This document shows positions 1,554 through 58,956 of a stretch of DNA of 64,000 bases, one piece after another; within the stretch, counting starts at the first letter, position 1, and every line of letters starts with the position of its first letter. Source of the stretch: Microglena sp. YARC (Eukaryota; Chlorophyta; Chlorophyceae; Chlamydomonadales; Chlamydomonadaceae); contig CM039463.1 of the NCBI GenBank assembly GCA_022414725.1, forward strand, positions 28,163,571 through 28,227,570, in the 5' to 3' direction. The translations under genes were made by a program, and so were the position numbers. Under the pieces are notes generated by a model. It was not told where the DNA came from and did not search any database. It saw only the letters and a list, made by a program, of their open reading frames with translations.

Positions 1554-1567
1554 AATATCAAATGTCC

Positions 1568-7808: not shown

Positions 7809-7878
7809 CTGTACCGCTTGCAGATACAGCCAGGAAAGTGCCGCTTGCCGCTTGCATACCAGGCAAGTGCAACCAAGG

Positions 7879-7920
7879 GTTTATAGGGTTTATAGGGTTT
7901 ATAGGGTTTATAGGGTTTAT
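7879..7920 (+). repeat. GGGTTTATA tandem repeat
   Basis: Five near-perfect 9-base units of GGGTTTATA lie just 5' of the ankyrin-like gene. They resemble telomere-like TTTAGGG with a TA insertion. Translated they give RVY repeats, which is why the longest frame appears to start upstream at 7,852. Confidence 0.85.
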
Positions 7921-7965
7921 CCCAACTCAGTATTTATTTATACCATCCTGTGCGCTTGTACACAC

Positions 7966-24397: not shown

Positions 24398-27300
24398 ATG
24401 TTGCACCAACCCCCGACATACCGAAAGCTTTCGCCACGCGACCATGTGCTCCTGCGCCCCGGTATGTACGTAGGCTCTGTGGAGCAAACGACCGACGCAA
24501 AACAGCGCATCGTCGTTCACACCACGATCAAGACGACGACACCAACATGCGTTGATGAAAACAAGGAAGACGAAGATGATGATGCAAGCACCATCAGCAA
24601 CTCGTCGAAAGCGGTATCAACAATAACCAAGGCTTCCGTCGCCGCAGATGCTGCTAATGTGCGCATTGAGATGGCGCACAACTCGACTGTGCACATACCG
24701 GCATTGTTCAAAATCTTCGACGAGATACTCGTGAACGCCCTTGATCAGGTGCAAGAGAACGATGCAGTCCGCCGCATCGATATTAGCGTCGACCGCGGCA
24801 CGGGCGTCATCGGAGTGCGTAACGATGGAGTAGGGCTGCCTGTGGAGATGCACCCGGAACACGAGTGCTACACCCCAGAACTTATCTTCGGACACATGCT
24901 CACGTCAGCCAACTACGACGATGACATGGAGAGGACCATCGGCGGACAGAATGGCATCGGAGCCAAGGCTTGCAACATCTTCTCGGAATGGTTCAAAGTA
25001 GAGACGCTAGACGCCACACGCCGCCTAAAGTACACCCAGCGGTTCGAGGAGAACATGTCGCGCACGCTGCCACCCACAATCTCCCCAGTGCCAGCCAGGA
25101 CGAGGAATCCCAAGCAATTCGTCAGCGTGCGCTTCCTCCCCGACTACAAACGCTTCGGAGGGCTTCAGTCTCTTCCTGAGGATATCCTCAAGGTCATGGA
25201 GAGGCGCGCGTACGACATTGCAGCGCTCACGCCCACTCGCGTCACATTTAACGACCATATCTTGCCCATCCGGTCGTTCGAGCAGTACGCCAACATACAC
25301 GGTAACACGGAATCCGAACTCGTCTTCGAAAACCTGAAGATGTTCGAGGGACTCGAATGGGAGGTGGGGGCGAAGCTATCGGACACCGGGTTCCAACAAG
25401 TCTCGTTCGTTAACGGACTGAACACCGTACGCGGAGGCAAGCACGTCGAATACATACTACAAAACATATGCAAACGCGTTGGTGAGTACGTCAGCAACAC
25501 TAGCACCAAGATCGGACGCTCGCTCAAACAGTCGGTCGTCAAACCGCAGTTCGTCAGAGAGAGCTTATTCCTCTTCGTTCGGGCGACCATCCCCAACCCG
25601 ACGTTCGACTCGCAGGCCAAATAACTCCTCACTACACCGGCGACACGTTTCGGAGGGACGAACAAGAAATCATCATCCATAGGCATCTCCGAACGTTTCA
25701 TCGGGCGCCTCTGCAAGCTAGACGGATTCGTGGAGCAAGTAAGCGCACTAAGCGGCGTGGCCACAGAACGCGACACCCGCAAGACAGACGGCGCGAAGCG
25801 AAGCGTTGTCTATGGGGTCAAAAAGCTAGACGACGCCGAGTGGGCGGGAACGGCAAAGAGCGAGCAGTGCACGCTCATACTCACGGAGGGGGATAGCGCC
25901 AAGGCAATGGCAGTTGCTGGCCTCGCCGTCGTAGGAAGACAACTCTATGGCGTCTACCCTCTACGCGGAAAGGTCATGAACGTGTGCGACGCTCCCTCAG
26001 AGAGAATCTCCGCCAACGAGGAGATCAGCAACATCAAGAAGATCATGGGTCTCCAAAGCGGACGCGTGTACGACTCGGTCAAGGATCTAAGATACGGACG
26101 CATCATGGTCATGACCAATCAGGATGTCGACGGCTCGCACATCAAAGGGCTCGTCTTCAACCTCTTCCACCAGCTCTGGCCATCGCTCCTCGCAATAGAT
26201 GGTTTCATGACATCCATGCTCACACCAATCGTGAAGGTCAAGCAACATTCTAGTAAGCAGAAGCAAAATGTCGTAAGCTTTTACAATATCTCGGACTTTG
26301 AGCGATGGCAAGAAGAGAAGAAGTCCGACTCCTCCAGAAAGTCGTGGACTGCAAAGTACTACAAGGGGCTGGGGACATCGACATCAGAGGAGGCGAGAGA
26401 GTATTTCCGAGAACTGCGTACTGTAACCTACCACATCGCAGACGAGAGAACGTGTCCCGACGCACTCTCCAGATTGTTTGACAAGCGTCGCGCGAACGAT
26501 CGGAAGGCGTGGCTACAATCATACGACACCAACGACACGCTGGACTACCAAGCATCGCAGCAGATGAGGGTGTGCTACGGAGACTTCATCGACAAGGATC
26601 TGAAACACTTTTCGAATTACGACGTCCTCAGGTCTGTACCATCCGTTGTGGACGGTCTTATGGTGTCCCAGCGCAAAGCTCTCTTCGGCTGCTTCAAGCG
26701 ATGCGGTCCCTCGAACGACAACTACCCGGAAGCGCGAGTCGCTCAGCTTGCGGCTTACGTTGCGGAGCACTCCCTCTTCCACCACGGCGAGGCGTCCATG
26801 CAGGGCACCATCATCGCCATGGCCCAAAACTTTGTGGGTGCCGGCAACAACCTGAACCTGCTGCAGCCCATCGGACAGTTCGGGAGCCGCCTCGGAGGTG
26901 GGTCAGATCACGCTTCACCTCGATACATCCACACGTGTCTAGAGCCCGTGACGCGCGCCCTCTTCCCCAGGGAGGACGACCGCGTCCTAGAGTACCTCAC
27001 GGACGACGGGACGAGCGTGGAGCCCCGGTTCTACGCCCCGATCATACCGCTCGTGCTCGCTAATGGAGCCGACGGCATCGGAACCGGCTACAGCACACAC
27101 ATCCCATGTTTCGATCCCAGAGACCTCGTGATCGCGATCCGAGAACGCATCTGCGGAACAGAACGCATCACGAAGCTGAAACCATGGTACAAGGGCTTCC
27201 GTGGCGAAGTGGGGGGCATTCGCGTGAACGGCCGCGAGGTCATCACCGGCAGCGTGGTGAAGGTAGGCGCGACCAAGGCGCGCATCACCGAGCTACCGGT

Positions 27301-28129
27301 AGGCGTATGGATCGACAACTTCAAGGAGACGCTCGAGAACTTCGTCGGGGATAACGCCAAGGGTGTCAAAGGGTTCTCGAACGAGAGCACGGAGGATAAT
27401 GTAAGCTTCACAATCACGTTCTCGAACTCCGCCACGGCATCCTCTTGGCTCCAGGTGAATACTACTCAAGACTCCGAAGCACACGATGACGACATAGGAT
27501 ACGGAGACACCGTGAATGGTCTCACGCGTCTGGAGATAGAGCTCAAGATGTACGTCTCCAAACCTCTGTGCATGACCAACATGCACCTCTTCGATGCCAG
27601 CGGTCGCATCCGCAAGTACTCCAGTCCAGAGGAGATCCTAGACGAGTTCCTCGAGCAGCGCATGAAGGTCTACGTGCAGCGCAAGGCATGGCTTGAGCGA
27701 GAGCTGGCGGAGACCTTGCGCGTGTTGGAGCAGAAGGTGCGCTTCGTGGAGCTAGTGGTCACAGGCGAACTGGACATGTTCAAGGAGGTGGTCGACGACG
27801 ACAACGACAACGATGACGAGGTGGAAGATGACGATGACGATGACTCATCAGGTCTTGACTCGGCGTAAATGAAACAAGGAACTGCATCACCAGATGCTAA
27901 AGAGAGGAAGCGTGTACACGCACTCGAGAGGCACGGACTGGAGTGTGTGAAAGGGTCGTTCAGGTACCTGCTGTCGATGCCAGTATCGTGCCTGACTCGG
28001 AAGCGTAAGGATGCGCTGGAGTGCGAACGTGACGCGAGGCGCACCGAGTTGGAGGCGGTGCGCGTCACGGATGAGAAGGACATGTACATACGGGACCTAG
28101 AGCGACTCGAGAAATTCCTGATCAAGTAA
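24398..28129 (+). pseudogene. TOP2: DNA topoisomerase II (type IIA), two in-frame TAA codons
   Basis: One continuous frame of 1,244 codons encodes a complete eukaryote/NCLDV-type topoisomerase II, the ATP-dependent double-strand passage enzyme. The N-terminus has YRKLSPRDHVLLRPGMYVGS. The GHKL ATPase shows DEILVNALDQ, NDGVGLP and GGQNGIGAKACN. The Toprim domain has EGDSAKA (~residue 497) and NQDVDGSHIKG. The winged helix includes YYKGLGTS, and the active-site tyrosine is in ASPRYI (~residue 843). An acidic tail is followed by the conserved C-terminal RYLLSMP and a coiled coil ending at 28,129. TAA codons interrupt it at 25,622-25,624 (codon 409, between ATPase and Toprim) and 27,866-27,868 (codon 1,157). 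There is no frameshift anywhere. Either stop could arise from CAA or GAA by one substitution. Confidence 0.93.
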
Positions 28130-28139
28130 ATGATGGGAT

Positions 28140-28213
28140 GGTGTGAGCACAATGGTATAAATTATTGGTAGAAATACATAAAAATGTACCTGTAATTATT
28201 ATCATCAGTAAAC
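28140..28213 (+). promoter_or_regulatory. Conserved upstream block of fibre-like genes, copy 1
   Basis: An AT-rich block with GGTATAAATTATTGGTAG, then CATAAAAATGTACCTGTAAT and TTATCATCAG precedes the ATG. It recurs before copy 3, and its second half before copy 2. Conservation over three copies may reflect recent duplication as much as promoter function. TATAAAT is a plausible late-type core. Confidence 0.45.
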
Positions 28214-29399
28214 ATGGCCGATGATCTTTTAGTGTACAAATTCTTCGCAATTATTTTGCTTTCCGTAATCGTCGCTATATCCATGAAGCCCCCGATAAGG
28301 GAGGGTCTCACAAACAACAAATCCAGCCAACCATTCCAACCAACCATTCCAACCAACGATCCCAACAAACCATTCAACGCAATCAATAGAAAAAGGTACG
28401 TGAAATCCTACAACGTCGCAGACAACGGCATTTACGGGTTGGAAAACATTGCTTATAACAAGGTTGTACCAAATATCTCTGTAAAAGGGGAGATTAGGTT
28501 CCAGACGCCTAAGACTAACAATACGGATAATTACACCCTGCGTAAAGTAGTCCACGGCGTCGATAAGAGTTCTCTGCGCCTAACGATTAACGACGACTCG
28601 GATGAGGTCATTGAGATTTGGGGCGACTATTGCGCAAACGGAGGATGTGGAGGAGAAGGTGCCGTCGCTCACAAGTTCACTGCGGATGGCAATGCATGGC
28701 ACAAGGGTGGTATGACGGCAGACGTAACCAACGTAAATCGTATCAAGCTTGGGAATAAGTGGAGTTTAAGTGGTGTGGGTGACAAGCATGGGAACGACGA
28801 CTGGTTGCGACTATTTAATAAAGATGGGACTGGGTACTACGGGGGTCTGGCTGCCGGGCGATTGTGGTCTGGAGGGGCTACGACCCTCAACGGGCCCACG
28901 TACACTAAAGACATCACCGCCTCTGGAAATTTGAATGTATATGGTGGCAATGCCAATGTCTGCGTAGACGGGGCATGCATTACCAAGGGCGACATCAACA
29001 CTTTCAAGGCCGCGAAGGCCGCAATCTCACAACTACAACATGACTTAACCTCGACGACCTCTCTTGCTAAGACACAACAGAAGGTGTCGGCAGAGAATGA
29101 AATAACCATCGCTAGACTACAGCAGGTATTGTCAGCGACGACCTCCCTTGCTCAGACACAACAAACCTTGTCCGCGATGAATGAAAGATCCATTGCTCAA
29201 CTACAGCATGACTTGTCAGCGACTAAAGCGCATGCAAAGGCATTGGCACTCGCACAGGCACAAGCACAGGCACAGGCACAGGCACAGGCATTGGCACATG
29301 CACAAGCACAAGCACAAGCACAGGCACAGGCACTGGCAGCGGCACAGGCAGCGGCACAAGCACAAGCACGGGCACAAGCACAGGCATAGGCACAGGCAT

Positions 29400-29484
<85 letters not shown>

Positions 29485-29890
29485 AGCACAGGCACAGGCA
29501 CAGGAGCAGGCGCGTGCAAATGCAGCAAATGCAGAGGCGCAGGCGCGTGCAGCACAGGCACATGCGCAGTTGCGTGCAAATGCCGAGGCGCAGGCGCGTG
29601 CAAAGGCACAGGCGCAGGAACTACGGATACAAATCAACGTTGAAGATACTTCAAGTGATGGTTTACCACCAAATGGTTCAAACAATCCTGGTTTTGCGAT
29701 TCGTGCGGGTCAAACAAATTTTGTCAACAAAATTACTCAATCCAAATATTTTAGAATTGATAATGGTCCACATTTGACGTTTAAAAATTATTATCCAAAA
29801 TCGCATTATGGAAAAGATGTTATTAGATATGGTCCTGCAATCCAGAATTTCAAGGCATATCAAAATCACACTTTTGATTTTTTTATGTAG
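28214..29890 (+). pseudogene. Fibre-like virion protein, copy 1, with distinct C-terminal tip
   Basis: ATG 28,214 opens a protein with an N-terminal membrane anchor (residues ~8-24, [15 protein letters not shown]) and a Lys/Asn/Pro linker. A beta-rich segment follows with [24 protein letters not shown] and [20 protein letters not shown], then [14 protein letters not shown] and [12 protein letters not shown] coiled coil of [11 protein letters not shown] repeats leads to a long Ala-Gln repeat. In-frame TAG codons at 29,387 and 29,399 interrupt the Ala-Gln repeat, where the surrounding codons are CAG. The same frame continues to a TAG ending at 29,890 and encodes a unique ~85-residue tip ([15 protein letters not shown]). 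[16 protein letters not shown] segments are familiar from giant-virus structural proteins; function as a virion surface fibre is inference. Confidence 0.75.
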
Positions 29891-30043: not shown

Positions 30044-30107
30044 AAGGATGGGATGGTGAGGCGGTGACATCATAAAAATGTACCTGTAATTATTATCATC
30101 AGTAAAC

Positions 30108-31667
30108 ATGGCCGATGATCTTTTAGTGTACAAATTCTTCGCAATTATTTTGCTTTCCGTAATCGTCGCTATATCCATGAAGCCCCCGATAAGGGAGGGT
30201 CTCACAAACAACAATTCCAACCAACCATTCCAACCAACCATTCCAACCAACGATCCCAACAAACCATTCAACGCAATCAATAGAAAAAGGTACGTGAAAT
30301 CCTACAACGTCGCAGACAACGGCATTTACGGGTTAAAAAACATTGCTTATAACAAGGTTGTACCAAATATCTCTGTAAAAGGGGAGATTAGGTTCCAGAC
30401 GCCTAAGACTAACAATACGGATAATTACACCCTGCGTAAAGTAGTCCACGGTGTCGATAAGAGTTCTCTGCGCCTAACGATTAACGACGACTCGGATGAG
30501 GTCTTTGAGATTTGGGGCGACTATTGCGCAAACGGAGGATGTGGAGGAGAAGGTGCCGTCGCTCACAAGTTCACTGCGGATGGCAATGCATGGCACAAGG
30601 GTGGAATGACGGCAGACGTAACCAACGTAAATCGTATCAAGCTTGGGAATAAGTGGAGTTTAAGTGGTGTGGGTGACAAGCATGGGAACGACGACTGGTT
30701 GCGACTATTCAATAAAGATGGGACTGGGTACTACGGGGGTCTGGCTGCCGGGCGATTGTGGTCTGGAGGGGCTACGACCCTCAACGGGCCCACGTACACT
30801 AAAGACATCACCGCCTCTGGAAATTTGAATGTATATGGTGGCAATGCCAATGTCTGCGTAGACGGGGCATGCATTACCAAGGGCGACATCAACACTTTCA
30901 AGGCCGCGAAGGCCGCAATCTCACAACTACAACATGACTTAACCTCGACGACCTCTCTTGCTAAGACACAAAAGAAGGTGTCGGCAGAGAATGAAATAAC
31001 CATCGCTAGACTACAGCAGGAATTTTCAGCGACGACCTCCCTTGCTCAGACACAACAAACCTTGTCCGCGATGAATGAAAGATCCATTGCTCAACTACAG
31101 CATGACTTGTCAGCGACTAAAGCGCAGGCAAAGGCATTGGCACAAGCACATGCACAAGCACAGGCACAGGCACAGGCACAGGCATTGGCACATGCACAAG
31201 CACAATCACAAGCACAGGCACAGGCACTGGCAGCGGCACAGGCAGCGGCACAAGCACAAGCACGGGCACAAGCACAGGCACAAGCACAGGCACAAGCACA
31301 TGCACAGGCACAGGCACAGGCACAGGAGCAGGCACAAGCACAGGCGCGTGCAAATGCAGCGGCACAAGCGCGTGCAAATGCAGAGGCACAGGCGCGTGCA
31401 AATGCAGAGGCGCAAGCGCGTGCAAATGCAGAGGCACAAGCGCGTGCAAATGCAGAGGCCCAGGCGCGTGCAGCACAGGCACAAGCACAGGCAGAGGCGC
31501 AGGCGCAGGCAGCACAGGCACAAGCACAGGCGCGTGCACAGGCAGAGGCGCAGGCGCAGGCGCAGGCACAGGCACAAGCACAAGCAAAGGCAGAGGAACG
31601 CGAGCGTGCCACTGCAAAAAGAAGAGAAAGATATGCGGAGATGGTTCGTAGAGGTTATTTCAAATGA
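30108..31667 (+). CDS. Fibre-like virion protein, copy 2
   Basis: An intact 519-residue frame starts at ATG 30,108. It is almost identical to copy 1 through the membrane anchor, the beta-rich domain and the [11 protein letters not shown] coiled coil. The Ala-Gln repeat is longer and grades into ARANAEAQ units. The protein ends in a basic tail ([16 protein letters not shown]) and its stop falls where a Fanzor fragment begins (~31,664), so the original C-terminus may have been replaced. Neighbours on both sides are tandem copies. Confidence 0.8.
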
Positions 31668-32120
31668 TATCATACCGGATAGAGATTCTTCGAGATCTGA
31701 ACAGATTGGTGCGTATGCCAGGTTCTACATGGGTGCCGCCCCAATTCTTCTTGCCCATCGTGCTTCGAGGGGGTACCGAAACATCCTCTTTTGCAGGTAC
31801 TGCAAGAAACAGAAACTCATTGTTGAGATTGCTGACTTCGTAGCTACGAGGGAGAAGAAGGTCTGGGGGCGACGCCAATCTCTAGGCGGACTTGTGGCCC
31901 TCTCCAAGCTATTCGTTTCTAGCTTCGTAGCCAAGAAAACGTCATCATGGAGGACGTCGATGAGTTCAGAACATCTCAACGATGCAGCTGCTGTGAGAAC
32001 CGCCTTTGCAACATGGTGGCACTCACTCATCGTAAGAAGCAAGACTGTACCGGTTGGGAATGTACAGAAGGACGCAAGCGGATTCACAATATTCTCCACT
32101 GCAAAAGCAGTCAAAGCGGA
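31664..32120 (+). pseudogene. Fanzor fragment captured in the fibre array
   Basis: The sequence matches ~54,870-55,350 of the TIR-flanked Fanzor. It encodes pieces such as SEQIGAYARFYMGAAPILLA, RYCKKQKLIVEIADFVA and the DEFRTSQRCSCC finger in shifting frames. The GKVLVGFGDWKG section is deleted. It starts exactly where fibre copy 2 stops and ends at the topoisomerase tail copy, at a short shared GCGCACCGAGTTGGAG-like junction. Confidence 0.8.
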
Positions 32121-32211
32121 GCGCACCGAGTTGGAGTCAGTGCGCGTCACGGATGAGAAGGACATGTACATACGGGACCTAGAGCGACTCGAGAAATTCC
32201 TGATCAAGTAA
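32119..32211 (+). repeat. Duplicated topoisomerase II 3' end, copy B
   Basis: It encodes RTELESVRVTDEKDMYIRDL and the end of topoisomerase II, then a stop. It is nearly identical to 28,037-28,129, and like copy A it precedes a fibre-like gene. Confidence 0.85.
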
Positions 32212-32235: not shown

Positions 32236-32315
32236 CATCCTGGTGTGAGCACAATGGTATAAATTATTGGTAGAAATACATAAAAATGTACCTGTAATTA
32301 TTATCATCAGTAAAC
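32236..32315 (+). promoter_or_regulatory. Conserved upstream block of fibre-like genes, copy 3
   Basis: It repeats the AT-rich block seen before copy 1, including GGTATAAATTATTGGTAG. Copy 2 has only the ATG-proximal half (30,070-30,107). Confidence 0.45.
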
Positions 32316-33449
32316 ATGGCCGATGATCTTTTAGTGTACAAATTCTTCGCAATTATTTTGCTTTCCGTAATCGTCGCTGTATCCATGACGCCCCCGATAA
32401 GGGAGGGTCTCACAAACAACCATTCCAACCAACCATTCCAACCAACCATTCCAACCAACGATCCCAACAAACCATTCAACGCAATCAATAGAAAAAGGTA
32501 CGTGAAATCCTACAACGTCGCAGACAACGGCATTTACGGGTTGGAAAACATTGCTTATAACAAGGTTGTACCAAATATCTCTGTAAAAGGGGAGATTAGG
32601 TTCCAGACGCCTAAGACTAACAATACGGATAATTACACCCTGCGTAAAGTAGTCCACGGCGTCGATAAGAGTTCTCTGCGCCTAACGATTAACGACGACT
32701 CGGATGAGGTCTTTGAGATTTGGGGCGACTCGTGCGCAAACAGGGGATGTGGAGGAGAAGGTGCCGTCGCTCACAAGTTCACTGCGGATGGCAATGCATG
32801 GCACAAGGGTGGTATGACGGCAGACGTAACCAATGTAAATCGTATCAAGCTTGGGAATAAGTGGAGTTTAAGTGGTGTGGGTGACAGGGATGGGAACGAC
32901 GACTGGTTGCGACTATTTAATAAAGATGGGACTGGGTACTACGGGAGTCTGGCTGCTGGGAAATTGTTGTCTGGTGGGGTTACGCATCTAAACGGGCCCA
33001 CTTACACGAAAAACATCACCGCCTCTGGAAATTTGAATGTCAATGGTGGCAATGCCAATGTCTGCATAGACGGGGCATGCATTACCAAGGGCGACATCAA
33101 CACTTTCAAGGCCGCGAAGGAATCAATCTCACAACTACAACATGACTTAACCTCGACGACCTCTCTTGCTCAGACACAACAGAAGGTGTCCGCAGAGAAT
33201 GATATAACCATCGCTAGACTACAGCAGGAATTGTCAGCGACGACCTCCCTTGCTCAGACACAACAAACCTTGTCCGCGATGAATGAAATAACCATCGCTA
33301 AACTAAAGCAGGAATTGTCAGCGACGACCTCCCTTGCTCAGAAACAACAAACCTTGTCCGCGATGAATGAAAGATCCATTGCTCAACTACAGCAGGAATT
33401 GTCAGCGACTAAAGCGCAGGCACAGGCACAGGCACAATCACAGGCACAA

Positions 33450-33484
<35 letters not shown>

Positions 33485-33917
33485 AGCACAGGCACAGGCA
33501 CAGGCACAGGCACAAACACAAGCACAGGCACAAGCACAAGCGCAGGCGCAGGCGCGTGCAAATGCAGATGCGCGTTTAGCACAGGATCAGGCGCAGGCGC
33601 AGGCACAGGCGCAGGCGCGTGCAGCACAGGCACAGGCACAAGCACGGGCACAGGCGCAGGCGCGTGCAAATGCAGATGCGCGTTTAGCACAGGATCAGGC
33701 GTAGGCGCAGGCGCGTGCAAATGCAGATGCGCAGGCGCGTGCAGCACAGGCACAAGCACAGGCGCAGGCTCGTGCAGCATCTGAACAGTCGCGGGCACAG
33801 GCGCAGGCGCAGGCTCGTGCAAATGCAGATGCGCAGGTGCGTGCATCACAGGCGCAGGCGCGTGCAAAGGCAAAAGCGAGTTTAGCACAGTACCAGGCGC
33901 GTGCAAATGCAAAATAG
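32316..33917 (+). pseudogene. Fibre-like virion protein, copy 3, one in-frame TAG
   Basis: From ATG 32,316 the protein has the same anchor and beta-rich domain, with more substitutions than copies 1 and 2 (for example [12 protein letters not shown]). It has an extra coiled-coil unit ([19 protein letters not shown]) and a long AQ/ARANADA repeat. A TAG at 33,702-33,704 lies in the repeat in a CAG context. The same frame continues to TAG 33,915-33,917, giving about 533 codons. No copy-1-type tip follows; an IS630-like relic starts about 30 bases later. Confidence 0.75.
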
Positions 33918-33946
33918 GACAGCTACATGGGCCAGCGGGACATATT

Positions 33947-34419
33947 AAACCCACATTCGAAAACTGATACTAAAATTTTCCTTGATTGTATCCTTGTATC
34001 TACTACAAAATTCAGAGACAAGTGGAACTAATTCCCCTTTACACTGTCCACGGAGTTTGCTCATTTTTCTTGTATAACCAATGAGTTTTATGAAACGATA
34101 CACTGTTTTAGTTGATAATCGTAAATTGTGAGTACTTTTGAAAAATGCAACAACACCTCTTGCGGTTGTGCATTGAGTTGACAATAAAAACAATTTCAAC
34201 AAATCTTTGTTCGTCTCAAAAAGTTTACTTACAAATTCACGTCGTTTTCGATTTACACCAAAGCGTTTCCACCTCCACAGAGTAGAACAACTGATGTTCG
34301 TAAACACAGAAGTTTTTAACACACCCAAGTCAGCGACCATTCTTAACGCCAATTTTCTAACGGCGATGTCGTACTTTATTTCCATCTGATATGTTTCATT
34401 TACTGTTCCGCCGACTGTA
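33947..34419 (-). mobile_element. IS630/Tc1-like element, truncated copy A
   Basis: The right terminal repeat (GTTTCATTTACTGTTCCGCC, then GACTG and TA) lies at 34,392-34,419. The transposase starts at ATG 34,385 on the minus strand and shows an HTH-type LSTKTVYRFIKLIGYTRK. It ends at ~33,947, before the first catalytic aspartate, so only the DNA-binding half survives. It matches copy B at 60,445-61,341. Confidence 0.8.
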
Positions 34420-35194
34420 GTCGAACACAGAGATCGTCTCCTTTGAATGATGGAACTGGATATAAAAAGCACCAAAGCCCGCATTAGAGTCAGGTCTTGA
34501 ACAGTGGCACGCCCATTTGAGTTTTTCACAGTTTCATTTTAATGTTCCTTTGAATGTACTGTATCCAGTATTTTGTCATCATGAGTACATCGAATCTAAA
34601 TCAGGATCGAAGAGGATTCGGTAGCGACATACATTCGCCTCGTCCTCCTCATATTCCCATAATCAGTGTTGTTGTATCCAAACTTGACGAGGGGCCAACA
34701 CATCATGATGAAGAGAATGAGAAAGAACAACAAAATAAATCCGCGCCGACAGTGTTATTGCTCTCCAATCGTTGTGCAGCCGAAGTCGTGGCATGCTTCT
34801 TCTTCCACATATTGGGGTCGTTATCCCCTACACCATGGTGAAACGCAGCCACGTTGTCCATCATGGTTCTAGCGACCGCCCGCATCTCCGGGGCGCACCT
34901 GAATCCTTGCGTCACATGGGTTTTCACGTTGATGGGGTACACGCACCCGCACGAGGCAGTCCTCTACGCTGTATCGCAGTACGTTGGATGCGTCTTAGGC
35001 GCAATGTACCTCTCGCTCATGATCCCGGGCGTCAGCGTGGGGGGACCTGGCTTAGGATGCTTCTCGCCAAGCGAAGGGATCACAGACAGGCGCGTGCTGG
35101 CTATCGAAGGGCTAGGAACGTTCGTGTTCACACTGTGCGTCTTCGCGGTCGTGTGGTACACTCAAAACAAGCACGGGTACGGTACCATCGGTCC

Positions 35195-35268
35195 TACAGT
35201 CGGCGGAACAGTAAAATGAAACATCCCAATACACGAAGTGGTTTCATTTTAGTATTCCGTTGACTGTA
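35195..35268. mobile_element. 72-bp MITE with IS630/Tc1-type ends, inside the aquaporin
   Basis: The two 26-base termini (CAGTCGGCGGAACAGTAAAA and the inverse of CAGTCAACGGAATACTAAAA, both then TGAAAC) agree at 22 of 26 positions, with only ~18 bases between. TA flanks both sides. Removing the element and one TA leaves the aquaporin frame open across the site. The terminus supplies the stop TGA that ends the upstream part. Confidence 0.9.
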
Positions 35269-35407
35269 TCATGATCGGACTGTCTCTCCTTGCACCAGCC
35301 CTTGCCATAGGACCGCTCACCGGTGGTGCAATGAATCCTGCCCGCGTGTTGGCAAGTCCGACGGTCTTCAACGAGGGCACAGGATGCAAGGGAGAGTTCC
35401 TATTGGT

Positions 35408-35423
35408 GGTGTCGATAGACACC
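35408..35423. other. Perfect hairpin at the aquaporin/Rep junction
   Basis: GGTGTC-GATA-GACACC is a 6-bp stem with a 4-base loop, located just 3' of the Rep-like reading frame's stop. It could be a terminator, a replication-origin remnant or chance. No canonical nonanucleotide is in the loop. Confidence 0.4.
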
Positions 35424-35434
35424 TGTTTTTGTTT

Positions 35435-35820
35435 TTATAGTTTGTAGATTTCAGTCATGTGGATAACCTTGAACCTCCTCCTGATTGCTGCAGTCATCTC
35501 ACTGTCCCACTCAAACTTTGGATCTTGTGGAGAGTAGTTGCTTGTCACCACTATTTTCTTGGGTCTGATGTGCAGGGTTCCTCCTTTAACTTCTGCCAGG
35601 AAGCTGTACCTGTCAGCCCATATCTTCAAGTGATGTCCCAGGTTCCCAGTGTCGAAGTCATCCAATATCACATAGTCTTCATCCTGGTATCCGTCCCACC
35701 ACTTGTTCTGGCCTTTCAGATAGGCCCCAGGGTAGTCCTTCCTTGCACCCTTGGACTTGCCACATCCAGGGGGGCCATAGATCCACACACCAGTCAAATC
35801 CTCTGCATCTTCTGGCTTGG
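35435..35820 (-). pseudogene. CRESS-DNA-virus-type Rep, helicase half only
   Basis: The minus-strand frame (open to ATG 35,797 and homologous a little further, KPEDAEDL) has the superfamily-3 helicase order of CRESS Rep proteins. Walker A is [33 protein letters not shown] block contains Walker B. Motif C is [11 protein letters not shown], and AAIRRRF is the arginine finger. The N-terminal HUH endonuclease is missing. It lies antisense within the aquaporin gene and replaces nothing visible of that gene. Endogenous Rep fragments occur in many eukaryotes, but in this case the host gene is itself viral-type. The source virus group cannot be named from this fragment. Confidence 0.85.
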
Positions 35821-36013
35821 CGTGTACGTGGGAGCCGAGATGCTCGGCGCCACGTTGTCCGCGATATGCGTGCTCCTGTGCTTCGGTGTGGCAGAGGTTC
35901 CTTGGTACCCGTACAGTGTGAAGAAGGTTGCAACAGTTGACTCGTTTGCTTTCCGAAAATAAGTAAACCTAACAGTGTATAAGGAATTTGCATGTACTAA
36001 ATATCAGAATGCC

Positions 36014-36610
36014 ATGTATGGCAACCAACGCTTCTGTAAAATTGGCAAGGCCTCCGATGCCCTTGGTGTCTCCAGGACCGTCCTCCGTCGATGGGCGGAT
36101 AATGGCACGATCAGAACGATCCGGACTCCAGGCAACCAACGTCTCTTTGACCCAAGCAGCATCCAAGGCTACCTCATCTAGCAGGAAAAAAAAACCAGCA
36201 GTCGTCAAGTCATTCTCTACGCACGTGTGTCCTCACACAAACAACAACCCGACCTACTCAGATAGCAATTGTTCTTGCAAACCCATATTTCTGACAAACA
36301 TTCCGGATGCGAGCAAGTCATTGAAGTCAAGGACGTCGGATCAGGGCTCAACTTCAAGCACCCAGGACTTTTACGAGTATTGGGACTCGTCACGACAGGA
36401 CTTGTATCGTCAATTGTTGTGGCTTCCAAAGACAGGCTCGCAAGGTTTGGTTTCTAGCTCATTGAATGGATTTGCTCGCAGCACTCCTGCTCGATCATCG
36501 TTCTCGATCACCAAGACGGAGCCCCTGAAGACGAGCTTGGAAAAGACCTCATGTCCATCGTTCAAGTATATTGTTGCCGATGGAACGGTCGAAGACGCTA
36601 CAAAGTCAAA
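36014..36610 (+). pseudogene. tnpA: IS607 TnpA serine recombinase, three in-frame TAG codons
   Basis: ATG 36,014 begins an HTH (FCKIGKASDALGVSRTVLRR, then WADNGTI and GNQRLFD). The same frame continues into the catalytic domain: ILYARVSSHKQQPDL with the active-site Ser, then KDVGSGLNFKHPGLLRVL, SKDRLARFGF and APEDELGKDLMSIV. TAG codons interrupt at 36,179, near 36,260 and near 36,454. There are no frameshifts. The 3' end overlaps the start region of the nuclease gene in another frame, as in active IS607 elements. Confidence 0.82.
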
Positions 36611-37838
36611 TGCCAAAACCAAGTTGAGGACCTTAAAGCTGAAGCTGAACCCAACCAAGGCTCAGAAATCGATGCTGGCAGAGTTTGCAGGGTGCAGCCG
36701 GTTCATGTACAACAAGGCGGTGGCAGCACGGTTGGGCGTCGGAAGCACTCACAAGTCTGTCTTCCGAATTCGAGACAGGTATGTGACGAACAAGGTGAGG
36801 GGGGAGGGTAAGATGCCAAACCCGTACTTCAAGAATCGCCAATGGTTGCTTCAGTGCCCCAAAAGCGTACGCCAAAGTGCAATCAAGGCTGCCTTGGCAA
36901 ACTTCAAGGCTTGCTTTTCGAATATGAAAGCAGGTAACATCAAGCATTTTTCAGCTCCGTTCAGACGGAAGAAGACAGAGCTTGAGAGGGGTTGGGCCAT
37001 TGAGATGGATCAGAAGAACGTTTCCAAGGATGGCGACAAACTCTTCATATTCAAAGACATATTGGGCAACATGCGCTACTTCGGTAGCAAACAACTCCAT
37101 AAGTTGATGCCTGAGGAAAACCCGACCCACGATCCAAAAGTCCAAAAATCCCGCTTCGGCGAATATTTCCTCGTCTTGTCTGTCGCTACCAGGGACAGGA
37201 GGGGAGATCGGAAGCCTGTCCATCCAGAAAAGGTTGCAACTGCATCCATCGACCCAGGCGTCCGCAAAACAATGGTCACGTACTCACCAGAGAATGAGGA
37301 ATCCTTCATGTTTGGTCAGGGACAGGCATCCGACCTTGTCAAACTCCTGCTGGTTCATGACAAGCTGCAGTCAAGGTTGGATACTGAGAAAACCTTACGA
37401 TCAAAAGAGAGGATGAAGATAAAAAATCAGATGATTCGCATTCGGAAGAGAATTTTTAACCTCAAGAAAGAGTTTAGGGACCAGACAACAAATTTCTTGG
37501 CCGCTCGCTACGATGTGTTGTTGGTACCTCAATTGGAGACGGCGAAGATGACAATCAGTGCTGAACGGGAGCTGACAACCAAGGTTGCCCGTCAGATGCT
37601 GACTTTGAGCCACTCTGTGCTGTTCAATCGGCTGAAGGAGAAGTGTGAAGAGTACGGGACAGTGTTCTTGCACGTGCTTGGGCATTACACAAGTCAGACA
37701 TGCCCTATGTGCGGTTTCTTAAACAAGTGTGGAGAGACATACACCTGCAAGAACAGTCAATTCACATGCGACAGAGACATTGTGGGGGCAGCTGGCATCT
37801 TCCTGAAGGCAGTTCGAACAGAAAATCCCTGTTCGTAA
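36606..37838 (+). CDS. tnpB: Fanzor/TnpB-like RNA-guided nuclease of the IS607 element
   Basis: The frame is open to 37,838. Recognisable family sequence starts at ~36,606 (KTKLRTLKLKLNPTKAQKSM), but no ATG is obvious there; the frame extends open upstream through the tnpA region, so the start is unresolved. RuvC-I is in SIDPGVRKTMVTYS (~37,250). The RuvC-II Glu is in VLLVPQLETAKM (~37,530). The zinc finger is CPMCG...C (~37,700), and RuvC-III Asp is in CDRDIVGAAGIFLKAV (~37,770). All catalytic residues are present, and it is the only Fanzor in the window with an unbroken C-terminal half. Its length fits viral Fanzor2/TnpB proteins. It would cut DNA guided by an element-encoded RNA, probably overlapping its 3' end. 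Confidence 0.82.
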   Translation, partial: SNAKTKLRTLKLKLNPTKAQKSMLAEFAGCSRFMYNKAVAARLGVGSTHKSVFRIRDRYVTNKVRGEGKMPNPYFKNRQWLLQCPKSVRQSAIKAALANFKACFSNMKAGNIKHFSAPFRRKKTELERGWAIEMDQKNVSKDGDKLFIFKDILGNMRYFGSKQLHKLMPEENPTHDPKVQKSRFGEYFLVLSVATRDRRGDRKPVHPEKVATASIDPGVRKTMVTYSPENEESFMFGQGQASDLVKLLLVHDKLQSRLDTEKTLRSKERMKIKNQMIRIRKRIFNLKKEFRDQTTNFLAARYDVLLVPQLETAKMTISAERELTTKVARQMLTLSHSVLFNRLKEKCEEYGTVFLHVLGHYTSQTCPMCGFLNKCGETYTCKNSQFTCDRDIVGAAGIFLKAVRTENPCS

Positions 37839-37997
37839 AGGACAGCATCCCCGGGGGAGTTGACCCCTATGATACCCCTATGGAGAATTCATTGTCTTTC
37901 TTACTACATGTCCCCCGGACCCCCGGATGTGTACCGCAATTCCTCGCGTAAACCCCTAAACCACAGTTAACACAGCATAAATGGGTGACAAACTTAA
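37839..37997 (+). other. 3' flank of the Fanzor gene, candidate guide-RNA region
   Basis: GC-rich sequence with CATCCCCGGGGGAGTTGACC follows the stop. In TnpB/Fanzor elements the guide RNA usually covers this flank. No structure was computed, so this is a positional suggestion only. Confidence 0.25.
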
Positions 37998-38970: not shown

Positions 38971-39305
38971 TTGTGCTTGATACAAATGTACTTACTTACT
39001 TACTGACGCGAATTATTTTTAGTGCAATCGTCCGCGAGTCAATGACTCACTGAGCTGGCCGGAACACACAATGCGGACAATCTTTATCTGCAGACAGGCT
39101 CTCTCGATTATTCCAAGTCTTCATCAGAACACACGATATGCAGCAGTTGATACAATGTATAAAAGTTACGAACAACAACTACTAAAGTGCTTACTCGCAC
39201 AGTTACGATAACACATATTTTGATGAAAGTGATACAATCGTGTTGAAAATAAAAGGCATATTACATATTCACACTATAATCCACAGTGGAGCGCCAAGAG
39301 CTACC
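38971..39305. other. Divergent intergenic region
   Basis: AT-rich spacer between the Cys-cluster protein and the D5-like gene. It contains ATTTTGATGAAAGTGATACA and ACTTACTTACTTACTG, but no gene or known promoter motif. Confidence 0.5.
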
Positions 39306-42021
39306 ATGGGTAATCCTTCACAACAGCAACATGATGCAAGCGCGCCAATCTCTCCGCAACTGGCTGAGCAGGCGCTTCACCGGTTTCTATCCCAGCGCCG
39401 TGTACATAAAGGGGACGAATTCACACACACCGGCATGGGGGGAGGACGCTCGTGCAGTGCAGGATCATACTACATATCCGCATCCGACCAGGAAGATTTC
39501 CACCGTCTGTACCGTGAAGCAGTAAATGCAGGCGCACCGGATCTCTCGCTCACAGAGAAGCACCGCCACATCGGACCGGTCGTCATTGACCTAGACCTGA
39601 GACTTGATTCGGGATGTATTGGAGGCGGCAGGGCTTCTCATGACAAGTCCATAGTGGACATTCGCTCATTGGCACCTCAGATATGCAAAATATACCTTCA
39701 ACGCATCCGAGAATTTGTCGACGCTCCGCGCATCCGTTTCTTTGTCATGTCCCGATCCAAGGCTCCTATGCTCTTCAAGAGCGGCGTGCTAAAGGACGGA
39801 CTGCACATCATCGTCCCGGACATCGTGACCCGCACCGAGGTGCAGTACCTCCTCAGACAGAAGGTCCTAGATGACCTATCGGCCCTGTTCTCCACACACA
39901 TCCCTGGCTTGTTATCGCGCATCGAGGATGTCGTGGACGAGGCAGTCATCGAAAAGAACAACTGGATGATGTACGGAAGTCGAAAACCTGGTGCCACGCC
40001 GTACACCGTGCACAGCGTGCTAGAGTGGGACTCCGTCTCCTCACTAGCGGAGGTCCCGATAGCGGAAGACGAACAACATCTCTCAGACATACTCTCTATC
40101 CGGAACAAGTACACCGAGAGCGAGCTAAGAGAAGATAGTCTTGATGAGGTGACTGTATTCTCACGCACACGAGAACATCGCAACAGAATGCGAGAGACGA
40201 TCCAGAATGTAGTCATGCAGGAAGACGATTGTAGGAACAACCACGTCTCCGCCGATGAGTTCCTTTGCATTTCCCAGATTGTGATGATGCTTTCTCCAGC
40301 TCGCGCCGACTGCTACAACGAGTGGGTCCGCGTAGGTTGGTGTCTGCGCAATATAGATCATCGCCTACTAGACAAGTGGGAGGAATTCAGCCAACAGTCG
40401 CCAAAGTATGTGAACACCGAGTGCGCTCGTTTGTGGAACAAGATGCGCACAGGCGGACTCGGGATAGGCACACTACATATGTGGGCGAAACACGACAACC
40501 CCGAGGCGTACCTGAACCTTATCCGCAATGATCTACACTCGCTCATCATGCAGAGCTCTAACGGGACGCATTATGACGTCGCTCGCGTGGTGCACCACAT
40601 GTATCGCTATGATTACGTATGCGCTTCCATCAAGATGTGCATCTGGTACGAGTTCAGGAACCATCGATGGCACGAGACCGATTCCGCATACACTCTACGC
40701 GGCAAGATCAGCACCGAAGTGGTCAGCGAACCATGAACCGCGCTACCATGAACATTCAATCCATGTCCCTGACGGTTGATGAGTCTGAGCAGAAAAGGTT
40801 GATCGAGCTGGCTCACAAACTCACCGCCGTATCCCTGCAGTTGAAGAAGACCGCTTTCAAGGACAACGTGATGCGCGAGTGCTGTGAGTTGTTCATGGTC
40901 GAGAAGTTCTGCGACCTCCTTGACAGCAACTGCTCTCTGGTGGGGTTCGAGAACGGAGTGTACGACTTGGAGCGTTTCGAGTTCCGTGACGGTCGTCCTG
41001 ACGACTACATTTCCTTCTCGACGGGTTGTGCGTACACCCCATTCCATCGCGACCACCCAGTGGTCGCCGAAATAAACAAGTTCTTCGCCCAGACGCACCC
41101 ACGAGAGGACGTGCGCACATACCTTCTAAGGACGCTCGCGGATTGTCTCTCAGGGCACATCCGGTACGAGCGCATGAACGTGTGGACAGGAAGCGGATCG
41201 AACGGCAAGTCCATCACGATCTCTCTCATGGAAAAGTCGCTTGGGGACTATTGCTGCAAGTTCCCTGTCACTCTTCTTACGCGCCAGAGAGCGGCTAGCA
41301 ACGCAGCCACTTCTGAAATCGCTAGGGCCAAAGGCAGGCGTTTCGGCGTGCTGCAGGAGCCATGCGAGAACGAGCACCTGAACATCGGACTAATGAAAGA
41401 GTTGTCGGGAGGAGATACCATTCAGTGCAGGGAGTTGTACAAGCCCCCCGTTGAGTGGAAGCCGCAATTCAAGTTGTTTCTACAGTGCAACCATATTTAC
41501 CTTCGGTTCCTTCGGACGACGGAGGCACGTGGCGACGCATACGCGTGATAGAGTTCAAGTCCAAGTTCGTGCCCAAGCCATCCCCGGACCACCCTAACGA
41601 GTTCCCCATGGACCTTGAACTATCGTCAAAGTTGGAGCATTGGAAGGAGCACTTCGTATCGATGCTGATACACACATACACGGCCACGTTCGGGCAGGCG
41701 CTCGAGGAGCCTGAGCCCGTCATGGCGTGTACTCACCAATACCAGCGCGACAACGATCACCTTGCCGATTTCGTCGACAAGTGTGTAGAGAAGGTCGAAG
41801 AAGACACGGTATCGGCGGAAACGCTCACGCTCGACGCAGCATTCGACGAGTGGAAGATATGGAACAAGGCCGAGTCGGACGGTATCACGGGGGCAACCAA
41901 GATCCGGAGAGGCGCGATGAACAAGTACCTAGACCAGGCGCTGAGGACGAAAGGAATTCGTGTCAAGGGGGTAGGAATTGTTTACGAGGGGTTCCGTTTG
42001 ATCGAACCAGAGTTACGTTGA
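39306..42021 (+). pseudogene. D5-like primase-helicase, two frameshifts
   Basis: ATG 39,306 starts a ~905-codon gene. The N-terminal third is an archaeo-eukaryotic-primase-like domain with HRHIGPVVIDLDLRLD (metal-binding D-x-D). A D5_N region follows, then the SF3 helicase with Walker A GSGSNGKSITISLMEKSL (~41,190), a QEPCENEHLN block and LFLQCN (motif C). The tail has DDGGTWRRIRVIEFKSKF. The frame moves near 40,730 and again near 41,500, each explicable by one base. This is the NCLDV hallmark replicative primase-helicase, acting at the viral replication fork. The 3' end converges on a minus-strand gene. Confidence 0.88.
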
Positions 42022-49572: not shown

Positions 49573-50012
49573 ACACTTCTTGTTCTCAAATAAAGTGGGA
49601 CAACACCTTATAATCATCCAGACTGCATATCGTTGCTTTTGGGCAACGTAGGGGGGGGGTGCAGCAAGTTTAAGAGGTTCTCGAAAATATTCAGAGTCGC
49701 CTCTTTGGTAAACCGTTCAACCGTCTGTGTCCCCAAATCAGTATCAGGTGTTGGTGGGGTTTTCGAGGAGCTTCTCGGAGCGTCTCGTAGAAACGCGAGA
49801 GGTCGCTCTCTCCCAAAGACTTGGTGGAGTGTAAGCATCAGGATGTTCCTGGAAGCGTTCACATCTCGGTCCCAAGTCTTCCTGCAGTGGAGCCTACCGC
49901 CGTTCTGTTGGCGTGGCGATCCGCTTTGACTTGTTTTGCAGTGGAGAATATTGTATTGAATCCGCTTGCGTCCTTCCGTACAATTCCAACCAGTACCGTC
50001 TTGCCTCTTTGA
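49573..50012 (-). pseudogene. Fanzor transposon 3' fragment
   Basis: Reading the minus strand, it carries the last part of the TIR-flanked Fanzor: TGWNCTEGRKRIQ, LHCRKTWDRDVNASRNIL with the RuvC-III Asp, and TQTVERFTKEATLNIFENLL, then the terminal repeat (49,573-49,620). Joined at its 5' side to an M2 MITE end. Copies with more of the gene are at 54,139 and 57,398. Confidence 0.82.
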
Positions 50013-50029
50013 GTCAATCTCAATTTGAA

Positions 50030-50137
50030 GACTCCAATCCCTTCTTGAACGACTCACTAGCTTGAGACATAAGCACCAAGGAATAACAAATCCGCTCCAA
50101 CCAGTCAAAATAGGCCGGGAGGCAGGAACGCCCATTT
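50030..50137. mobile_element. MITE family M2, partial
   Basis: GGCCGGGAGGCAGGAACGCC followed by CATTTA is the right end; part of the interior (GACTCACTAGCTTGAGA) is recognisable. The other end is replaced by the Fanzor fragment. Confidence 0.7.
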
Positions 50138-54138: not shown

Positions 54139-55693
54139 ACAGTTGTTCTCAAATAATTTGGGGACACTCAGTATAATTTGAATGATATCCCCTGAAACCT
54201 GGTACAGGTCCGTGGTTCACTACAAATATTTTTTGAGGAGTATCAGGAAGGTTTGTAATATATACAACGTGTCCAAGATCTCACTACATAGATGGGTCAA
54301 TGCTGATCAGGTGGGTAAAAGTAAGCGTTTAAAACGAAAAAATAAAAACGAAAAACATCGCACATTCTCGTTGTTGCCTTACAAATCTGGATTCACTCTG
54401 TCGCACATTCCGATTTCGAAAATGGCCTTTTTCTATATGGTCAACGAGTGCCACTTCGATTCATGCAAGGCAGACGTTGCTTCCAAAAACCATCAAGGAA
54501 TATGGGAGCGCTTCGCAAACCTCAAGAAAGTGGAGACAGTTTCTCGGAAGTTCGGTTACCGCATTGTGACAGACGGCTTTGCAGTCAGCATCTTGATGAA
54601 TAAGCCTACGTGTCTGACATGTTCGATGCCTGAAGACGCGTTCTCTACGCGGGCGCATGAGTATGTGACAACAAACGAGGGTGGCATTGTATTTTCCTCG
54701 ACAATGTGGTCGTGGCTGCGGTAGACCGGGTGTTACTGATATCGTGACTGTAACAGGACTCAACGGAGGTACAAGATCGTACAGCTAGGCGCAATATTAT
54801 CGCAAGGGTCTGATCTTCAAGTCTCAGCGTCAAACTGACGTTTGAACCTCGAGACGGCTGATATCGTCGGTGGTATCATTCCGGATAGAGACTCTTCGAG
54901 TTCTGAACAGATTGGTGCGTACGCCAGATTCTACATGGGTGCCGCCCCGATCCTTCTTGCCCATCGTGCTTCCAGGGGGTACCGAAACCTCCGCTTTCGC
55001 AGGTACTGCAAGAAACAGAAACTCATTGTTGAGATTGCTGACTTCGTAGCTCCGAGAGAGAAGAGCGCTAAGGTACTCGTCGGGTTTGGTGATTGGAAAG
55101 GTCTGGGGGCGACGCCAATCTCTAGGCGGACTTGTGGCCCTCTCCAAGCTATTCGTTTCGAGGTAGCCGAGAAAACGTCATCATGGAGACATCGATGAGT
55201 TCAGAACATCTCAACGATGCAGCTGCTGTGAGAACCACCTTTGCAACATGGTGGCACTCACTCATCGTAAGAAGCAAGACGGTACAGGTGGGAATGTACA
55301 GAAAGGACGCAAGCGGATTCATAAGATTCTCCACTGCAAAAAGCAGTCAAAGCGGAGCGCCACGCCAACAGAGCCGGTGGTATGCTTCACTGCGGGAAGA
55401 CTTGGGACCGCGATGTGAACGCTTCCAGAAACATCCTGATGCTTACACTTCACCAAGTCTTTGGGAGAGAGCGTCCTCTCGCGTTTCGCCGAGACGCGCC
55501 GAGAAGTTCCTCGACAACCCCACCCCCTGATACTGATATGGGGACACAGACGGTTGAACGGTTTACCAAAGAGGCTACTCGGAATATCTTCGAGAACCTC
55601 TTCAACCTTCTGCACCCCCCAACGTTGCCCAAAAGCAACGATCTGCAGTCTGGATGATTATAAAGTGTCCCACTTTATTTGAGAACAACTGTA
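54139..55693 (+). mobile_element. TIR-flanked Fanzor transposon, copy 1 (1,555 bp)
   Basis: The ends are TACAGTTGTTCTCAAATAAT with GGGACACT on the left and AAAGTGTCCCACTTTATTTG with AGAACAACTGTA on the right, flanked by TA. The interior begins with an HTH-like SVVHYKYFLRSIRKVCNIYN, then ~54,470-54,720 (FGYRIVTDGFAVSILMNKP), IGAYARFYMGAAPILLA, a GFGDWKGLGATPISRRTCGP block, HCGKTWDRDVNASRNIL and a C-terminal helix. Frames change repeatedly, so it is dead. Tc1/IS630-type TA-flanked inverted repeats around a Fanzor recall eukaryotic Fanzor1 elements. Confidence 0.82.
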
Positions 55694-57397: not shown

Positions 57398-58956
57398 TAC
57401 AGTTGTTCTCAAATAATTTTGGGACACTCAGTATAATTTGAATGATATCCCTTGAAACCAGGTACAGGTCCGTGGTTCACTACAAATATTTTTTGAGGAG
57501 TCTCAGGAAGGTTTGTAATATATACAACGTGTCCAAGAGCTCACTACATAGATGGGTCAATGCTGATCAGGTTGGTAAAAGTAAGCGTTTAAAACGAAAA
57601 AGGAAAGAATTGTCCATGCTTTTACGTTCCACGATATCCAATGATATTGCAGTGAACCCCTTCATAACATGCAAGGATTTGGTCGGTATAATTTGCAAGA
57701 GTTGTAATGTGAGATCATTAATCCGTTGAATAATCAGATTGAATTTCCAAAAACCATCAAGGAATATGGGAGCGCTTCGCAAACCTCAAGAAAGTGGGGA
57801 CAGTTTCTCGGAAGTTCGGTTACCGCATTGTGACAGACGGCTTTGCAGTCAGCATCTTGATGAATAAGCCTACGTGTCTGACATGTTCGATGCCTGCAGA
57901 CGCGTTCTCTACGCGGGCGCATGAGTACAACAGACGTGGCATTGTATCCTTCCTTGACAATGTGGTCGTGGCTGCGGTAGACCCGGGTGTTACTGATATC
58001 GTGACTGTAACAGGACTCAACGGAGGTACCAGATCGTACAGCTAGGCGCAATATTATCGCAAGGGTCTGATCTTCAAGTCTCAGCGTCAAACTGAAGTTT
58101 GGAACCTCGAGACGGCTGATATCGTCGGTGGTATCATTCCGGATAGAGACTCTTCGAGTTCTGAACAGATTGGTGCGTACGCCAGATTCTACATGGGTGC
58201 CGCCCCAATCCTTCTTGCACATCTTGCTTCCAGGGGGTAAACCTCCGCTTTCGAAGGTACTGCAAGAAACAGAAACTCATTGTTGAGATTGCTGACTTCG
58301 TAGCTCCGAGAGAGAAGAGCGCTAAGGTACTCGTCGGGTTTGGTGATTGGAAAGGTCTGGGGGCGACGCCAATCTCTAGGCGGACTTGTGGCCCTCTCCA
58401 AGCTATTCGTTTCGAGCTTCGTAGCCGAGAAAACGTCATCATGGAGGACATCGATGAGTTCAGAACATCTCAACGATGCAGCTGCTGTGAGAACCACCTT
58501 TGCAACATGGTGGCACTCACTCATCGTAAGAAGCAAGACGGTACAGGTTGGGAATGTACAGAAGGACGCAAGCGGATTCATAAGATTCTCCACTGCAAAA
58601 GCAGTCAAAGCTGAGCGCCACGCCAACAGAGCGGTGGTATGCTTCACTGCGGGAAGACTTGGGACCGCGATGTGAACGCTTCCAGAAACATCCTGATGCT
58701 TACACTTCACCAAGTCTTTGGGAGAGAGCGTCCTCTCGCGTTTCGCCGAGACGCGCCGAGAAGTTCCTCGACAACCCCACCCCCACCCCCTGATACTGAT
58801 ATGGGGACACAGACGGTTGAACGGTTTACCAAAGAGGCTACTCGGAATATCTTCGAGAACCTCTTCAACCTTCTGCACCCCCCAACGTTGCCCAAAAGCA
58901 ACGATCTGCAGTCTGGATGATTATAAAGTGTCCCACTTTATTTGAGAACAACTGTA
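57398..58956 (+). mobile_element. TIR-flanked Fanzor transposon, copy 2 (1,559 bp)
   Basis: Same ends and order as copy 1, in the same orientation. The left part differs from copy 1 at ~57,600-57,740, where it has RSTISNDIAVNPFITCKDLV instead. This copy shows VDPGVTDIVTVTG (RuvC-I, ~57,975), GFGDWKG, DEFRTSQRCSCCENHLCNM (~58,450, zinc finger) and WDRDVNASRN (RuvC-III). Several frame changes remain. Together with copy 1, the 31,664 and the 49,573 fragments, it represents one family with at least four remnants. Confidence 0.82.

Follow-up and report, generated by a model that had tools for sequence, protein, structure and literature searches.

A 417-nt insert bearing the helicase half of a CRESS-virus-type Rep gene lies within an aquaporin gene that itself stands among giant-virus genes in a chromosome of Microglena sp. 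YARC. This arrangement is probably a nested endogenous viral element, in which giant-virus DNA became endogenous first and a CRESS fragment was captured later by end joining from a member of a narrow, putatively two-circle CRESS clade. The near-identical giant-virus copies present elsewhere in the genome serve as natural empty sites, which allows both the time and the manner of the CRESS capture to be worked out at single-base level. The results also tie a clade of Rep-only contigs, whose other members among the matches listed here are environmental, to a eukaryotic host genome, and provide evidence for a two-circle CRESS virus of which both halves have been endogenized. Furthermore, they make it testable whether CRESS and giant viruses meet within one cell.

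The giant-virus setting of the interrupted aquaporin

The window, by which we mean the whole 64-kb stretch of DNA analysed, covers positions 28,163,571-28,227,570 of contig C2 (94.8 Mb) in a genome of 568 Mb and 2,390 contigs. Pfam searches identify giant-virus genes for topoisomerase II, a C962R-type primase, D5, XRN, ankyrin, and patatin, which together constitute the giant-virus gene cluster within a eukaryotic chromosome that characterizes endogenous Nucleocytoviricota. The same window also carries LINE-like sequence in which reverse transcriptase and RNase H are recognizable, and a search of the window for tRNAs found none. The aquaporin, which the initial annotation of this DNA had called giant-virus-type from the letters alone, is located among giant-virus genes, with topoisomerase II and primase genes of that type on either side (Table 1). 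Its 'giant-virus-type' label rests on these neighbouring genes, and its closest relatives outside the genome are metagenome proteins (64% and 58%). A 10-kb sister stretch (L085) is collinear with the window across the topoisomerase, aquaporin, and primase genes, with 96-97% identity, and the arrangement of primase and D5 in two frames is similar there.

Other repeated features are present in the window. Three tandem paralogues of a gene of unknown kind with long Ala-Gln repeats are found at 28196-29890, 30090-31667, and 32298-33917, compared to one main copy in L085. A repeated element with TnpB-like frames, recognized by eye, occurs at 31665-32124, 49582-50135, 54443-55693, and 57745-58956, and recurs in L086, where it lies at a distance of 1.7 kb from the CRESS copy.

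Table 1. Coordinates of the insert, the aquaporin pieces, and neighbouring features (window positions)
Feature	Position	Strand	Evidence and remarks
Topoisomerase II	24398..27868	+	PF00204, PF00521, PF16898; one in-frame stop
Aquaporin, first part	34554..35194	+	PF00230 3.7e-18 on 34842-35219; private TGA at 34839-34841
MITE-like element, 70 nt, inverted-repeat ends	35197..35266	.	Between two TA (35195-35196, 35267-35268)
Aquaporin part with second NPA box	35267..35401	+	PF00230 8.8e-6 (35253-35447); sister alignment
Whole CRESS insert, 417 nt	35402..35818	-	Missing in 18/18 sisters; aligns full length to L011, 85.7%
Viral 3' flank, 33 nt, with hairpin 35409-35424	35402..35434	-	Hairpin recurrence in other copies
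Rep stop	35435-35437	-	
Rep residues 147-273 (P0002 numbering), SF3-type helicase half	35438..35818	-	127 open codons; PF00910 5.8e-9
Aquaporin last helix	35819..35929	+	Aligned to sisters; natural C-terminus replaced at start of IS607-type element
IS607/TnpB-type element	35930..37925	+	PF00376, PF07282, PF12323; MerR-type HTH 35963-36181; TnpB-like frame to 37838
C962R-type primase and D5-type helicase frames	39186..41548	+	PF23162, PF08707, PF08706

A Rep helicase half inside the aquaporin

To judge from its alignment, the insert is viral from end to end because all 417 nt align to another CRESS locus, L011, at 85.7%. The minus-strand frame ends in ...YVILDDFD...IVVTSNY...RRRF...YKL*, and its motifs are ones that we take to be Walker A, Walker B, motif C, and the arginine finger. 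The insert thus carries the SF3-type helicase with these four motifs that characterizes Rep proteins of Cressdnaviricota. Its Rep sequence is 82-83% identical to the database Rep P0002, and a PDB search matched four distinct Rep sequences, of which the best is 7lar ('ATP-dependent helicase Rep', 3e-17), presumably the Rep of porcine circovirus 2. Among 1168 candidate database proteins, 1163 match the helicase segment at E<=0.001. To the left of the insert, the MIP domain is split over two frames (Table 1), whereas Pfam gave no separate match for the piece to the right, which is recognized as aquaporin through alignment with intact sisters. Together with the PF00910 and 7lar matches, these data bear out the proposal that a CRESS-type helicase half sits in the aquaporin in antisense orientation, after the second NPA box and ahead of the last helix.

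The insert is a Rep fragment rather than a whole Rep. Specifically, it begins at residue 147 and lacks the N-terminal HUH endonuclease domain, which is present in the relatives P0002 and L015 (PF02407). A stem-loop origin with a nonanucleotide is likewise absent from the window insert. A plasmid or phage origin of the helicase was considered and rejected: a plasmid search gave no match, no phage protein matched the window piece, and P0002 reached only ~24% identity to phage proteins. The grouping with an unrelated plasmid or cellular P-loop family against which the original claim had been set therefore did not appear.

The perfect 6-bp hairpin at one end had been taken to mark a border of the insert. 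However, it is located inside the viral insert, and 10 of 10 further CRESS copies have it as well, either behind the Rep stop or where the intergenic region begins; these copies were chosen because they reach that region, and their similarity was judged by eye. We therefore reject a role as transposon end or border mark and assign the hairpin to the CRESS element. Five of the recurrences are identical and two have loop differences. In L009, T-A replaces C-G at the innermost stem pair, in L022 the same change is accompanied by a shortened stem, and in L016 the hairpin is imperfect. Taken by itself, a single 6-bp hairpin per 417 nt is at chance level, as 66 of 200 shuffles reach one.

Retention of the helicase half for some functional role, such as that of an antisense or antiviral element, would agree with its 127 stop-free codons and with the existence of EukProt entries (P0003, P0004, and P0035) that are close to the EVE Reps and probably come from the same organism. 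We consider this explanation very improbable. The insert is younger than ~1.2-1.4% divergence, and therefore only ~5 changes are expected and the open frame is uninformative on use. In addition, the HUH half is missing.

Empty sites in the sister copies

The first part of the aquaporin has 63 matches in the genome, and besides the window 26 of these span residues 1-122 at 93-98% identity. Our comparison used 19 of these 26 near-identical copies, 18 of which reach the insert site (the alignment of L049 ends before it). In all 18, the aquaporin is uninterrupted and reads GAGTTCCT|GGGCGTGTAC at this site. The window reads GAGTTCCT-[417 nt]-GGCGTGTAC, such that one G is lost and a target duplication is absent. 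This pattern fits what end joining would leave. The empty sister sites therefore establish the borders of the insert as 35402-35818; the initial annotation had correctly located an insert here, although the extent it gave (35408..35820) was not exact.

The window aquaporin has four separate lesions, namely the TGA codon, the MITE-like element, the CRESS piece, and the IS607-type element, and open sister copies remain. The codon corresponding to the TGA is TGC in 19 of 19 sisters, the MITE-like element is missing from the same 19, and the IS607-type element is not found at that place in any of the 18 sisters that align on both sides. In L040, L041, and L047, pieces of the IS607/TnpB-type element are present upstream of the aquaporin and in opposite orientation, and therefore this element has moved among sister copies.

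The nearest sisters examined are L044 and L045, with 9 differences from the window in 765 bases (1.18%), followed by L051 and L053 with 11 in 765. The L051 copy shares with the window a transposase-like stretch upstream of the aquaporin (33946-34420), and carries neither the MITE-like nor the CRESS piece. A Tc1/mariner name for this stretch was suggested by eye only and was not adopted, as Pfam gave no family (33945-34538, 60572-61225). These comparisons support a CRESS capture later than the split of the window copy from its nearest examined sisters, and are in keeping with the two successive endogenization events that had been envisaged at the outset.

We propose the following history. Comparison of the copies shows that related segments with giant-virus genes, including the aquaporin, occupy dozens of places in the nuclear genome. 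The window copy had presumably already split from its nearest examined sisters when a small circular Rep virus was in the nucleus and a break in the aquaporin took up some of its DNA, with end joining closing the gap. In this history, the donor, which most likely had two circles, belongs to a narrow CRESS clade whose Rep, intergenic, and Cap pieces are seen at some 34-44 places.

An assembly artefact at the join between insert and aquaporin is extremely unlikely. The junctions are known from the assembly alone, and the genome is rich in near-identical copies. Nevertheless, the aquaporin resumes beyond the insert with one base lost and within a long contig, the insert sequence was found at no other locus (best protein identity 89%), and dozens of additional CRESS loci are present in the genome.

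CRESS loci across the genome

Searches of the genome yielded at least 37 matches for the P0002 Rep, at least 26 for the intergenic stretch of L027, and at least 16 for the Cap piece. When merged within 20 kb, these correspond to at least 27 Rep, at least 14 intergenic, and at least 15 Cap loci, with at least 44 loci overall and at least 34 at E<=1e-8; these are counts of loci and not of capture events, since tandem arrays, or repeated copies of a single event, account for some of them. The circovirus-type Cap, Rep, and intergenic pieces are mostly located apart from each other, and Cap coincides with Rep loci in 2 of 15 cases. In L015, a single open frame of 361 residues (937-2019, minus strand) fuses Rep residues 1-160 to a circovirus-type Cap piece (PF02443, 2.1e-13) that begins with its own arginine-rich N-terminus. 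Relative to the Cap cut-off, L087 passes, L088 barely does so (36.3 versus 36.2 bits), and L089 falls below (27.7 bits). A search for outside relatives of Cap gave none at E<=0.001 among 282 candidates in a large protein collection and none in the PDB. In viral contigs, no free relatives were confirmed and no free circle was seen.

Two further open frames were set aside. On visual inspection, the 136-residue frame at L023:2500-2907 is similar to the C-terminal half of another kind of CRESS Rep; it was not counted because PHROGs, Pfam, and the PDB gave nothing. The ORF at L010:3-908 has 36% identity to a D5-type ORF of the window over 145 residues, but lacks a Pfam match.

The surroundings of these loci are diverse. 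The flanks of L018 are LINE-like, those of L019 are more weakly so, and L017 is located at the end of a satellite array with a 1.65-kb unit. Tandem units of 1.65 kb, many with ~44 nt of the CRESS origin stem-loop, are present in L074 and L077-L084 (C2:84190759-84202246 and contig C1737), where a viral origin seems to have become part of a satellite and to have multiplied with it. At L028-L031 (C1:109434115-109436048), at least four head-to-tail units of ~583 bp each contain Rep residues 214-273, the hairpin, and the common block described below. The Cap pieces of L090 (C3:35804301-35806200) are tandemly duplicated with a step of 692 bp and are 99.5% alike. This locus adjoins ankyrin-gene sequence that is 92% identical to window positions 8024-8522 (ankyrin ORF 7759-9345). 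Similarly, L065 and L068, which are 96.5% alike and 19 kb apart, lie next to ankyrin genes.

Three loci, L012 (C1:163.85 Mb), L013 (C5:40.15 Mb), and L020 (C1:106.70 Mb), have one CRESS insertion and its flank in common, with 95-98% identity over 1.9-2.1 kb. Therefore, CRESS DNA can travel with a larger repeat, which is perhaps a giant-virus one. The common insertion has an internal Rep deletion, and the L020 copy is split by a further insertion with MITE-like ends as in the window.

These three loci, together with the pieces next to ankyrin genes (L065, L068, and L090), would also be accommodated if the CRESS piece had entered a giant virus during co-infection and the window copy had been endogenized with the piece already inside, for which the captured Rep of avipoxviruses provides a precedent (PMC10193959). 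We regard this sequence of events as distinctly unlikely. The insert is missing in all 18 other copies, including L051, which has the upstream transposase-like stretch in common with the window, and the flanks of L012, L013, and L020 correspond to repeats in the window that are not necessarily viral. Moreover, CRESS pieces are also found next to LINE-like sequence and within a satellite array, and for this reason contact between two viral groups, which the nested arrangement had been thought to record, is not needed.

A wider version of this idea, which is speculative and decidedly improbable, holds that a bipartite CRESS virus lives with or on giant viruses and reaches host chromosomes through them. 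Its circles would enter giant-virus genomes at co-infection, where they would break genes, as with Rep in the aquaporin, or land beside them, as with the Cap and origin pieces beside ankyrin genes. Such a route of entry, if true, would explain the insertion common to L012, L013, and L020. DNA of virophages and transpovirons enters giant-virus genomes and offers a comparison. Our preferred reading is the later capture of CRESS DNA by giant-virus sequence that was already endogenous.

Phylogeny of the Rep helicase half

In a tree with 61 rows, six EVEs and five environmental Reps are intermixed within one clade (98/94), a placement that is based on 132 columns only, with bootstrap values not settled and EVE_L022 on a long branch. 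Forcing the six EVEs together is disfavoured (p-AU 0.0198). The rows comprise 6 of 10 EVE pieces, with L012, L013, L026, and L028 omitted because each fills at most half of the columns, together with 55 environmental proteins out of the 117 on which a wider tree was based. That wider quick tree, with 127 rows and calculated without P0003, P0004, and P0035, gave no well-supported set containing the window EVE. Our reading of the 61-row tree is that it reflects repeated capture from one narrow virus clade.

One or two circles in the donor virus

The organization of the donor is suggested by loci that preserve junctions. In L027 and L016, the sequence leads from the end of Rep through the hairpin and a common block to a TAGTATTAC stem-loop, read on the complement of the Rep strand, and then to the start of Rep, with stop-to-ATG spacers of 268 and 271 nt. 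Given a Rep of 273 residues, these spacers therefore correspond to a Rep circle of ~1.09 kb. Consistent with this size, the longest contigs are 0.9-1.3 kb for 25 of the 30 best database Reps with known contig size (P0002-P0034). For many lower-ranked database Reps the contigs measure 1.5-3.6 kb, and contigs are not necessarily complete circles. The L023 locus shows, after a Rep piece, the end of Cap, then the common block in reversed sense, and beyond a CAATATTAC stem-loop the start of Cap.

A stem-loop origin with a nonanucleotide, as is typical of Cressdnaviricota genomes, is thus present in the related loci. The TAGTATTAC origin occurs in L010, L015, L016, L017, L021, L027, and L037, where L010 and L021 represent one place, the CAATATTAC origin occurs in L023, and CAGTATTAC is found in L088 and L090. 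A common region between components, as expected for a multicomponent virus, is found when the Rep spacers are compared with the Cap spacers of L023 and L089: the common block scores above all 60 shuffles in 15 of 16 comparisons, and the exception (L023-L016) is reached by 2 of 60. No common block was found in the Cap locus L088 in any of eight comparisons.

Because the Rep-end/origin/Rep-start and Cap-end/origin/Cap-start junctions share the common block, the donor was most likely a bipartite virus with a Rep circle of ~1.09 kb and a Cap circle, each carrying a stem-loop origin and the block. Alphasatellites are Rep-only circles of ~1.0-1.4 kb that depend on a helper virus. The size of the Rep circle fits this class by arithmetic, but the Cap component with its common block argues instead for a virus component.

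A different structure for the donor, which is compatible with the other readings given here, is a single ambisense circle with both Rep and Cap, from which the Rep-only and Cap-only junctions would have arisen as deletion products. We find this rather unlikely. If Cap shared the circle, it would be expected between the end and the start of Rep, whereas L016 and L027 proceed from the end of Rep through the origin to the start of Rep without it, and L023 proceeds in the same manner from the end to the start of Cap. The contig sizes of the best Reps and the separation of Cap from Rep loci in 13 of 15 cases also argue against one circle. Nevertheless, the common block has opposite senses at Rep and Cap loci, as would be observed for convergent genes with one 3' region, and L015 and L023 each contain a Rep piece joined to a Cap piece. 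On balance, we favour the bipartite donor.

Comparison with known systems

A literature search that left subscription papers and preprints aside found no report of CRESS pieces inside endogenous giant viruses, which does not establish their absence from print. The genome of Amoebidium resembles the present one in having many giant-virus integrations, with aquaporin/MIP among the enriched domains, although at 202 Mb versus 568 Mb, and the words 'CRESS' and 'circovirus' do not occur in the main text of that paper (PMC11244446). The word CRESS is likewise missing from the main text of a survey of DNA viruses that integrate in protists (PMC10120064).

The CRESS EVEs described from Entamoeba and Giardia (Naryaviridae, Nenyaviridae, and Vilyaviridae) provide examples of Rep and Cap integrated in protist genomes. 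However, both genes belong to one genome in those viruses and whole genomes were integrated, whereas Rep and Cap are mostly apart in the present case (PMC7493932). Avipoxviruses offer a likeness in that a captured CRESS Rep resides in the genome of a large DNA virus. That Rep is described as a gene of a free virus with signs of selection, unlike the fragment in endogenous giant-virus DNA reported here (PMC10193959).

The closest parallels to the proposed donor concern its organization. Rengasvirus is described as a Rep-only circle of 1,045 bp with a possible capsid circle of 933 bases, although it is known as a metagenome or reagent sequence without a host (PMC8103869). Blackfly multicomponent viruses 1 and 2 have Rep and capsid circles of ~1.13-1.16 kb that share a common region. 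They are free circles from insects rather than endogenous pieces, but like the donor proposed here they carry Rep and capsid genes on separate small circles linked by a common region (PMC6630596).
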